In this document: positions 1,620 to 4,569 of the stretch, piece after piece | Layout: the number at the start of each line of letters is the position of its first letter | Numbering within the stretch: position 1 is the first letter of the stretch | Origin: an uncultured Cryomorphaceae bacterium | GTDB taxonomy: Bacteria > Bacteroidota > Bacteroidia > Flavobacteriales > Schleiferiaceae | Length of the DNA stretch: 64,000 nucleotides | NCBI GenBank assembly: GCA_913043005.1 | Contig: CAJWKU010000002.1 | Span: forward strand, 62,001 to 126,000 | Reading direction: 5' to 3' | The notes under the pieces: model-generated | The model's input: the letters and a program-made list of their open reading frames with translations, nothing else | Database searches by the model: none | What the model was told of the DNA's origin: nothing | Translations under genes and position numbers: made by a program

Positions 1620-3806
1620 ATGATTCAAAAAACAACTAACGAAAGCAAAGCCTTATTGAAGACTTTCTTTGGCTTTGACGAATTCAAAGGCAATCAAGCA
1701 GACTCAATAGATTCCATCCTCAATGGAAATAACACATTTGTTCGAATGCCAACAGGTGGAGGTAAATCATTATGCTATCAACTTCCAGCTATCCAAATGA
1801 AGGGAATCGCAATAGTGATATCACCGTTAATAGCATTGATGAAAAATCAGGTAGATTCAATAAGAAGTTTTGCTGCCGATGACTCTATAGCCCATGTTTG
1901 GAACTCCTCTTTAACTAAAAGGGAAATGGTGACTGTTCGTAAAGATCTCTCTTCAGGGGAGACAAAACTTTTATATATGGCACCAGAATCTCTTAACAGA
2001 TCTGAAAATATTGATTTTTTAAAAAATCTTAAAATATCATTTTACGCTATCGATGAAGCCCACTGTATTTCGGAGTGGGGTCATGATTTTCGTCCTGAGT
2101 ATAGACAACTGCGTGCAGCAATCAATTCAATCAATAATAGGCCGATTATGGCATTGACTGCCACAGCTACGGAAAAAGTTGTCTCTGACATTCAAAAAAG
2201 CCTTGAAATGAAGCAGGTAAATGTCTTTTCAACTTCGTTCAATCGTCCAAATCTATTCTACGAGATTAACTTGAAGAATGAAGTAGAGAAAGACATCATA
2301 AAATTGATTAAAAAGCATGATGGAAAGTCTGCAATTATCTATTGCCTTAGTCGAAAAAAAGTTGAAGAAATTGCTCAAATTCTTCAACTTAATGACATTC
2401 GAGCCCTACCCTATCATGCAGGATTAGACAGCAGCACAAGATCTAAACATCAAGATGCTTTTTTAAATGAAGATATTCATGTTATTGTTGCCACTATTGC
2501 CTTTGGAATGGGAATAGATAAACCGGACGTCAGACTTGTACTTCATCATGACATCCCAAAAAGTATAGAAAGTTACTACCAAGAAACAGGAAGAGCCGGA
2601 AGAGACGGAGGAGAAGGTATTTGTGTTACTTATTATTCGGAAAAAGATATTCAGAAACTAGATAAATTTCTCAGTAAAAAACCTGTTTCCGAACAAGAGA
2701 TTGGTCGACAATTACTCCAAGAATCAAAAGGATATGCGTTATCCTCAACATGCAGACGAGAATACATCCTGCATTATTTCGGAGAAGAATTCCAAAACGA
2801 AAATTGCGGAAATTGCGATAATTGTATCAGGAATTCTGAAAGAATAGATTCTTCAGAAGAAGTAAAATTATCTCTCAAGGTAATAAAAGAGGGAAAAAAT
2901 AATTTCAGATCTGAGCAAGTCGTGAATGTTTTAATGGGAAATGAAACTTCTGTGCTAAAAACTTTTGGTGCTAATAAATTGCCTCAATGGAGTTTAGGAA
3001 AAGATAGAACATCAGAATATTGGTCAGATTTGATACGTCAAATTTCATTAAAACATCTCATCAAAAAAGACATTGAGCGGTATGGCATCCTAAGCCTTTC
3101 GGAAAAAGGTAAAACTTTTTTAAATGATAACGTAAAGTTTCTCGCTAAACCACATCGAGAAATTTCTGAAAATATTGACTTAGCGGAAAAGAATAAACAA
3201 AGTAATTCTGTTTTAGATTCTGAACTTTATAAAAAACTACAATCAATAAATAAAACTTTAGCGAAAGAAAGAAGCATACCTCCTTACGCAATGTTTTCAG
3301 AAATATCTTTACAAGAAATGGCTAGCTCTTATCCATTTACTCAAGATGAATTAATGGTGATACCTGGGGTTGGAGAGGGAAAAGCAAAAAGATTTGGCAC
3401 TGATATCCTAGAAGCGATTAAGATCCATTGCGATGAAAATAATATTGAGAGACTTGAAGACCTTAAGATTCGAAGTGCAGGTCAAAAGGGGTCTCTCAAA
3501 ATATATATAATTCAATCTATTGATCGTTTGTTGTCCTTGGAAGAAATGGCAAATAACAAAGGTGTTTCACAAAATGAGCTACTTGAAGAAATGGAGCGTA
3601 TCGTTGGAAATGGAACACGGCTCTCCCTTGATCATATTATCGAGGAAATAATTGATGATGATGACTCAATCGATGAAATACTGGAATACTTTTCAGAAGA
3701 GTCTAAATTAGGAGATATAAATGAGGCACTTACTTATTTTGAAGACACTTATAATGAAGAAGAGCTTCGCCTTGTAAGATTAAAGTTTTTATGTTCAGTT
3801 CTTTAA
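1620..3806 (+). CDS. recQ: ATP-dependent DNA helicase RecQ
   Basis: RecQ is a superfamily 2, 3'-5' DNA helicase for recombination and repair. Motif I is TGGGKS at residues 45-50 and motif II is DEAH at 145-148. The QETGRAGRDG motif VI marks the second RecA-like domain. A zinc-binding RecQ-Ct region contains CRREYILHYFGE followed by CGNCDNC, and an HRDC domain lies roughly at 525-605 (MVIPGVGEGKAKRFG). About 120 further residues resemble the C-terminal helix-turn-helix extension of Bacteroidota RecQ. At 728 residues it is the usual length for this lineage. It is divergent from tatC, with only 55 bases to the chosen tatC start. Confidence 0.95.
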   Translation: MIQKTTNESKALLKTFFGFDEFKGNQADSIDSILNGNNTFVRMPTGGGKSLCYQLPAIQMKGIAIVISPLIALMKNQVDSIRSFAADDSIAHVWNSSLTKREMVTVRKDLSSGETKLLYMAPESLNRSENIDFLKNLKISFYAIDEAHCISEWGHDFRPEYRQLRAAINSINNRPIMALTATATEKVVSDIQKSLEMKQVNVFSTSFNRPNLFYEINLKNEVEKDIIKLIKKHDGKSAIIYCLSRKKVEEIAQILQLNDIRALPYHAGLDSSTRSKHQDAFLNEDIHVIVATIAFGMGIDKPDVRLVLHHDIPKSIESYYQETGRAGRDGGEGICVTYYSEKDIQKLDKFLSKKPVSEQEIGRQLLQESKGYALSSTCRREYILHYFGEEFQNENCGNCDNCIRNSERIDSSEEVKLSLKVIKEGKNNFRSEQVVNVLMGNETSVLKTFGANKLPQWSLGKDRTSEYWSDLIRQISLKHLIKKDIERYGILSLSEKGKTFLNDNVKFLAKPHREISENIDLAEKNKQSNSVLDSELYKKLQSINKTLAKERSIPPYAMFSEISLQEMASSYPFTQDELMVIPGVGEGKAKRFGTDILEAIKIHCDENNIERLEDLKIRSAGQKGSLKIYIIQSIDRLLSLEEMANNKGVSQNELLEEMERIVGNGTRLSLDHIIEEIIDDDDSIDEILEYFSEESKLGDINEALTYFEDTYNEEELRLVRLKFLCSVL

Positions 3807-3807
3807 A

Positions 3808-3957
3808 TCAATTCTTATAAATCCATTTTAATTCATTCGGGATTTCTGCAGAGCCTAAATTTATAAAGGCTATACTTTTTGAATAGTTTAATATTTGTTG
3901 AATTGTATTTGCTGAAGGTTGGCTTAAATATTCTGAGTTTTGTATAAATTTATCCAT
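3808..3957 (-). CDS. Small ORF downstream of the ECF sigma factor, 49 residues
   Basis: This short frame starts with ATG at 3957 and ends with TGA at 3808. The product begins MDKFIQNSEYLSQPSANTIQ and ends NELKWIYKN, with no membrane segment or signal peptide. It starts 42 bases after the stop of the sigma factor gene on the same strand, and ends one base beyond the recQ stop codon on the opposite strand, so it fills the whole intergenic space exactly. Its composition (QPSANTIQQILNYSKS) looks like real soluble protein rather than random AT-rich translation. I recall similar short proteins beside sigma genes in Flavobacteria, but cannot verify this. Function unknown. Confidence 0.6.
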   Translation of the reverse strand: MDKFIQNSEYLSQPSANTIQQILNYSKSIAFINLGSAEIPNELKWIYKN

Positions 3958-3999
3958 AGGCTTTGTTAATAGAAAATTAACGCACTTACTTCTAAATTA

Positions 4000-4569
4000 T
4001 TATGCGTCGATCTGCAATATTTTACGCAAGTTCATAATTGCATATCTCATTCTACCAAGAGCTGTATTAATACCTACACCTGTCTCATCAGCAATATCCT
4101 TAAAGCTTAATCCCGAAACCATACGCAACTTGATTACTTCTTGCTGGTCCAAAGGCAACTGCTCAACAGCAATTTTAATATCCTTGTACCACTGATCTTG
4201 GAGATCCTTTTCTTCATAATTAAGGGTTTCATCAGTTATACCCAAAATAGAATCACGACAGTCATCTATTCCAATGAGTTTAGACCGTTTTTTTTTTCTA
4301 AAATGATCCATAACCGCGTTTCTTGCAACTCTATGAATCCAACCAGAGAATTTACCTAATTCCTTGTATTCATTAGCTTTTGAAACTCGGATAAACTTGA
4401 TCCAAACCTCCTGCAAAATATCATTAGATAACTCCTCATCGTGAACTTTCTGTAAAATTAAGTTGAAAACGGATGGAGAATACCTCCTAACAAGATTTTC
4501 GAGAGCAATCTCATTGCCTTTTGAGTATTGCAAGACCAATTCGGCATCGCTTTTACCTACATTATTCAT
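4000..4569 (-). CDS. ECF-type RNA polymerase sigma-70 factor
   Basis: This 189-residue protein has the two domains of an extracytoplasmic-function sigma factor. Region 2 spans about residues 20-90 (LVRRYSPSVFNLILQ, then DILQEVWIKFIRV). Region 4 spans about 130-185, with the helix-turn-helix SFKDIADETGVGINTALGRM. It binds core RNA polymerase and directs it to specific promoters. No anti-sigma gene is adjacent: the neighbours are a 49-residue ORF downstream and a divergent uvrA paralogue upstream. The regulon cannot be read from the sequence. The family call is secure; the subgroup is not assigned. Confidence 0.92.
   Translation of the reverse strand: MNNVGKSDAELVLQYSKGNEIALENLVRRYSPSVFNLILQKVHDEELSNDILQEVWIKFIRVSKANEYKELGKFSGWIHRVARNAVMDHFRKKKRSKLIGIDDCRDSILGITDETLNYEEKDLQDQWYKDIKIAVEQLPLDQQEVIKLRMVSGLSFKDIADETGVGINTALGRMRYAIMNLRKILQIDA

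Follow-up and report, generated by a model that had tools for sequence, protein, structure and literature searches.

The window, by which we mean the whole stretch of 64,000 nucleotides analysed, carries between recQ and an ECF sigma gene a 49-residue open reading frame that, on evolutionary grounds, is a real gene. The reading we prefer, to which we give about an even chance of being right, is that this ORF encodes a translated small protein, the usual partner of the ECF sigma factor of type IX secretion, which would exert a reduced, anti-sigma-like form of feedback.

A small gene behind the sigma factor

The ORF lies on the minus strand at 3808..3957, stop codon counted, behind a gene for a 189-aa ECF sigma factor (4000..4569, also minus) and convergent with recQ (1620-3806, plus strand). 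An earlier note had proposed the ORF with its coordinates, placing its ATG 42 nt past the sigma stop and its end 1 base from the recQ stop, and all of this was confirmed. When the 193-nt gap was shuffled, an ORF that begins with ATG and reaches 49 aa or more arose in 179 of 20,000 trials (about 1%), which is what a chance ORF has in its favour, and length by itself is weak evidence for a gene. The matter is settled by the evolutionary evidence: conservation behind the sigma throughout the class, together with frame-specific selection, is decisive against a chance ORF, the probability of which we regard as negligible.

Sigma matches were found in 58 of 60 relatives, and 28 of the 30 loci L002-L031, the window included, have a family ORF just downstream of the sigma; the two without it, L017 and L022, run off their contigs. 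The earlier note had named disruption of the frame, by a stop codon or a frameshift, at the corresponding site of close relatives as evidence that would count against the gene; the 28 family-bearing loci show none. In these the ORF is 47-53 aa long, depending on the ATG chosen, and all 28 aligned members share M1, S26 and the terminal Asn. The codon substitution analysis that the same note had proposed points to selection on the protein, in frame: by the Nei-Gojobori method pN/pS is 0.24 in frame and rises to 1.35 and 1.14 once the frame is shifted, measured over 20 close pairs, some with a member in common, and third codon positions hold 213 of the 368 differences. In the window's own clade the selection signal is weak, the pN/pS values of 0.55, 0.56 and 1.16 resting on few changes. 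A read-through or C-terminal extension of the sigma was rejected as an explanation, because the frame of the ORF relative to the sigma differs among close relatives (0 in the window, 1 in L003) and the peptide is yet kept from its Met onward.

Of 131 loci in which the sigma stop could be read (three places counted twice), 121 have a family ORF within 700 nt of the sigma; among the ten others, two have less than 80 nt of downstream sequence, L123 has 670 nt and seven have at least 2 kb. The named loci with the small ORF include Flavobacterium, Tenacibaculum, Gramella, Maribacter and Chryseobacterium, while it is absent from two Mucilaginibacter loci. Asn is the final residue of every one of the 117 distinct versions next to a sigma, but not of the relocated copies at L049, L052 and L054. 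A profile of 28 members matched 122 of 295 genomes of the class and one of 98 members matched 157, mostly once each, leaving 138 without a match; the sigma itself was found in 261 (E <= 1e-22). The small gene and the sigma occur together in 155 of the 157 genomes (Fisher 7e-10), and the small gene is present in 2 of the 34 genomes that lack the sigma, these exceptions (G292 and G317) being 84% and 80% complete. Among the 83 of 121 class matches (the window's apart) for which the place of a sigma is listed, 60 lie 78-476 nt behind it on the same strand and 23 lie elsewhere. Thus, by the counts of sigma loci (121 of 131) and of placed class matches (60 of 83), the small gene usually adjoins its ECF sigma, as the gene of an anti-sigma factor would.

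In Pfam and NCBIfam no family fits the small ORF of the window, and the short forms of the family, of which it is one, gave no convincing sequence match in Pfam, NCBIfam or PDB; weak Pfam matches to short forms (GDI, PG_1098_N and others) were taken as chance. Rfam holds nothing at the site, and a literature search with partial coverage of titles and abstracts returned no paper on the small protein or on the class-wide motif described below. Judged by sequence, the gene is real and widespread, and none of the libraries searched has a family for it. It is too short for usual gene calling, which tends to miss the family.

The promoter and the regulon it points to

Between the sigma and the ORF lies a match to an ECF-type promoter, A[CT]A[AC]TA-N15-CGTTA, at 3978-4003. 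As read from the sequence, its -35 element, ATAATA (3998..4003, minus strand), overlaps the sigma stop codon, and its -10 element, CGTTA (3978..3982, minus strand), stands 25 nt before the ATG. Of 121 spacers between sigma and ORF, 117 contain CGTT where shuffling predicts 18.5, and its usual place is some 33 nt upstream of the start codon. When 115 sites were aligned on CGTT, a strong A[CT]A[AC]TA block appeared 15 nt upstream in most rows, one of its columns, for example, reading A in 111 of 114 cases; the spacing is mostly fixed, a few rows being shifted (L005, L006 and L027 among them). This bipartite motif is, by its sequence, of ECF promoter layout, and its sharp consensus, ACAATA-N15-CGTTA, holds across many families of the class. 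The window site has the top score of the 64 kb (18.1), but with a matrix whose training set included it; a held-out matrix trained on L061-L140 only gave it 17.4. The held-out matrix at 8 or above found sites in 23 of 28 other loci, vs none of 28 on the opposite strand, where the 23 include an L024 match that is not at the CGTT site and the 28 include two loci from Flavobacterium, like part of the training set. In the organism's own genome a degenerate pattern has two matches, one of them the window site, and a backward control pattern has seven.

Two further observations concern the vicinity of the motif. GCCT directly before the ATG (3954-3960 in the window, minus strand) recurs in 32 of 121 loci across distant lineages and is unlike a Shine-Dalgarno sequence, a count that the rule used for picking starts favoured; the idea that CGTTA and GCCT form one RNA element was dropped, as alignment revealed CGTTA as one of the two halves of a phased bipartite promoter. 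In L093, L118, L119 and L125 a second motif match stands shortly before the sigma start (from about 2868-2886 to 2895), a placement that suggests autoregulation in those lineages.

Where the small gene lies away from the sigma, a promoter scoring at least 12 is found just before it in 25 of 28 loci, with none on the opposite strand, and it is the promoter-gene unit that, by this comparison of sequences, is conserved rather than position alone. At L046 and L055 the relocated gene adjoins a gene that reads, by eye, as endonuclease III; the window sigma adjoins recQ and uvrA.

The earlier note missed that this promoter type is common to sprA, gldK and the small gene. With a matrix trained on small-gene promoter sites only, all 30 Flavobacteriaceae gldK loci have a site at 14 or above before the gene, as do 25 of 40 genomes of the class before sprA; the opposite strand gives none in either case, and the background is 3 in 678 pieces of 900 nt. 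A strict form of the motif has 64 matches in 43 of 60 Flavobacteriaceae genomes. Among the 30 of these with a locus (L141-L170), 17 lie inside ruvA, exactly 120 nt before its stop and followed by a SprA-like ORF, and four or more coincide with the small-gene site; RuvA identity was confirmed for L152 and L216, and SprA was identified by place for G053. The strict matches that read NTNKDEAL in translation (30 of the 64, filtered) had been considered a coding coincidence, an interpretation given up on finding that 17 of the 30 loci L141-L170 are ruvA sites.

The sprA site is mostly inside ruvA, where it fixes an otherwise uncommon codon. The first Ala of EALSAL is GCG in 25 of 30 ruvA genes, against 2 of 30 for the second (Fisher 1.4e-9) and 55 of 467 for the other Ala codons, the 30 genes being those of 40 regions with a readable ruvA end, chosen regardless of the motif. 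An apparently embedded promoter of this kind, pointing at sprA, was seen in L142, L143, L145, L149, L152 and others (match at about 1501) and in L174-L212, and it would explain the control of sprA. In the window's genus the site stands just before ruvA, where 11 of 18 loci have the exact pattern and the opposite strand has it in none; 13 of 19 loci have a site before gldK at 12.5 or above. The organism's own genome has the site before ruvA-sprA and none before gldK. Single strict matches (1501-1526) precede gldJ in L156, an LptA-like gene in L147 and a lipoprotein-like gene in L141; these are possible further members of the regulon, or chance.

The neighbouring gene matches Pfam Sigma70_r2 and r4_2 and so has regions 2 and 4 of an ECF sigma. 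Because the promoter type of the small gene also precedes sprA and gldK, we infer that this is the SigP-type sigma of type IX secretion. A sigma of the window's type would read the sprA/gldK motif, and promoters of type IX secretion genes carry that motif in sequence (gldK, sprA and the codon within ruvA). The small gene in turn looks like a member of this sigma's regulon, as far as promoter sequences can indicate. Co-occurrence of the sigma with type IX secretion was set aside as support, SprA being nearly universal (286 of 295 genomes) and leaving little contrast; it is missing from 5 of 34 sigma-negative vs 4 of 261 sigma-positive genomes (p=0.0014), and two of those five sigma-negative genomes are 0.5 and 1.2 Mb in size.

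The system to compare is PorXY-SigP of Porphyromonas gingivalis, where an ECF sigma likewise acts on secretion genes according to passages of PMC4800418 and PMC8265659; unlike here, those passages name no small partner, and the motif described here is bipartite and derived from the class. The genes with sites here belong to the machine that is under SigP control in that species. The P. gingivalis SigP motif, in the published passages, contains an AATA-like core. According to a passage of PMC4800418, rSigP bound upstream of ruvA and porT and not directly upstream of sov or porK. For F. johnsoniae the relevant passage of PMC10951265 gives one SigP homologue only, presumably the sigma studied here. 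A P. gingivalis hypothetical protein, PGN_0273, resembles the small protein in standing behind sigP (PGN_0274), by gene number alone. In the passages that mention it, PGN_0273 is on the side of sigP away from the sigP promoter (PMC8265659), is up 4.22-fold in one study where sigP is up 2.75-fold (PMC6994654), and appears with porT among the genes most strongly induced (PMC5329018).

Likeness to anti-sigma domains and the rival explanations

The earlier note had guessed that the ORF might encode a small protein linked to the ECF sigma gene, either co-regulated with it or itself regulatory, a guess that sigma co-occurrence and an ECF-type promoter of its own support at the level of sequence and that the predicted likeness of the long forms to anti-sigma domains supports at the level of models. 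A read-through fusion of a Flavobacteriaceae sigma-small pair was modelled with pLDDT 74.9 and pTM 0.53, its small part forming a helix (ETVDFLLNYSKAL) and a beta hairpin, at a local confidence that is fair to good. The long forms of 86-89 aa have three extra predicted helices. The model of an 89-aa homologue (15 rows; pLDDT 76.6, pTM 0.46) has helices at 7-14, 20-32, 34-53 and 59-70 followed by the hairpin, the last helix being the conserved segment. The ILNYSKAL helix is the helix after the first three in long forms, and the hairpin nearly always ends in Asn. In the short forms, that of the window among them, the first three helices are gone and the ILNYSKAL helix and C-terminal hairpin remain.

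With the long form as query, ECF sigma/anti-sigma complexes make up the first eleven Foldseek rows and 12 of 16 overall, at a best E of 0.21 with none at or below 0.001. In VIA the first seven rows are entries for ChrR, RslA, MucA, RseA, RskA, ChrR and DdvA, with Z from 8.2 to 4.5 among the 24 chains compared, values that can also reflect a common arrangement in helical models. The sole repeated NCBIfam match is an anti-sigma model, hit by 4 of 9 long forms with a best E of 2.1e-5, far below its cut-off. A PDB sequence search with the long-form profile put interferon gamma on top (E 0.008) and DdvA at E 1.1, and was not counted as evidence. Each of these lines is weak; jointly they favour a descent of the family from a class I anti-sigma domain, as far as the models go.

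Like the class I anti-sigma domains (RskA, ChrR, RslA, MucA, RseA, DdvA), the small protein has a gene that adjoins an ECF sigma, a promoter of that sigma's likely type and, in its long forms, three predicted helices with a following helix, the fold matches being individually weak. Unlike them, it belongs to a family of 44-89 aa with no membrane or sensor part recognised, and the window protein keeps the last helix and beta hairpin only. The three-helix core of the domain plus helix 4 was not found in the 49-aa window protein, a short homologue having been modelled as one helix and a hairpin, and on these models we do not count the window protein among the class I anti-sigma factors. Helix 4 of class I anti-sigma domains contacts sigma region 2; if the corresponding helix does so here, the short forms may, by analogy, keep that contact only. 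EcfO and Reo of Bacteroides fragilis, likewise in Bacteroidota, are another such case, an ECF sigma next to an anti-sigma protein of an unusual kind.

Tandem sigma-small modules occur in 8 of 80 named loci (L080, L088, L107, L108, L109, L111, L112 and L124), all from Flavobacteriaceae or near, with a small ORF behind each sigma in all eight. One module of each tandem has a strong site (16.4-19.7) and the other a weak, drifted one (-0.1 to 10.4), and the eight duplications may stem from one event. This paired retention fits, on sequence, a partner of the sigma better than a component of the secretion machine, and it bears on the rival that deserves most weight: that the small protein is an accessory of type IX secretion, acting on the machine, for instance on GldL/PorL or PorX, and not on the sigma. 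We consider that unlikely, though well worth keeping in mind. A promoter common to sprA and gldK would suit such an accessory, as would a gene able to leave the sigma yet keep its promoter; against it stand the usual place of the gene beside the sigma, the small ORF kept beside each sigma in the tandems and the anti-sigma-like long forms.

Less probable still is a protein that binds the sigma to help it, as a chaperone or an adaptor to PorX, with no inhibition. The linkage to the sigma and the promoter would be the same, and PorX is reported, in passages of PMC4800418 and PMC10951265, to bind SigP; however, the folds that the modelled long forms match are those of ECF sigma inhibitors. That the functional product is an RNA, alone or with the peptide, as a short sigma-dependent regulatory transcript, appears very improbable. 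The predicted transcript is short and has its own promoter, and in some relatives (L024, L031) a hairpin with a T-run stands right behind the ORF, but the selection is on the protein and frame-specific, a protein-level profile holds across the class and Rfam is without a match.

A proposed feedback arm for the type IX secretion sigma

Under the preferred reading, that of a small partner with anti-sigma-like feedback, the sigma would transcribe the small gene while turning on the secretion genes. The small protein would, as a soluble and pared-down relative of the class I anti-sigma domain, bind the sigma and damp its activity in negative feedback. By analogy, then, it is probably a stripped-down brake on the sigma. 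Against this reading count the loss of the three N-terminal helices in the window protein, the weakness of the single fold and NCBIfam matches, the seven sigma loci with at least 2 kb downstream and no recognisable small ORF, the 138 genomes of the class without a match, the weak selection in the window's own clade and the lack of a gldK site in its own genome. The more general proposition, which we hold somewhat short of evenly balanced, is that the type IX secretion sigma has a built-in feedback family of soluble proteins of about 44-89 aa, which would be expressed from the sigma's own promoter type and would extend from almost complete anti-sigma domains down to remnants with a single helix. 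If this is true, the family would supply the negative arm that is missing from the PorXY-SigP loop, and the short forms would rank with the smallest of anti-sigma proteins. A candidate regulator is thereby proposed for the type IX secretion sigma, and a conserved small protein with a defined promoter makes the circuit directly testable in Flavobacterium.
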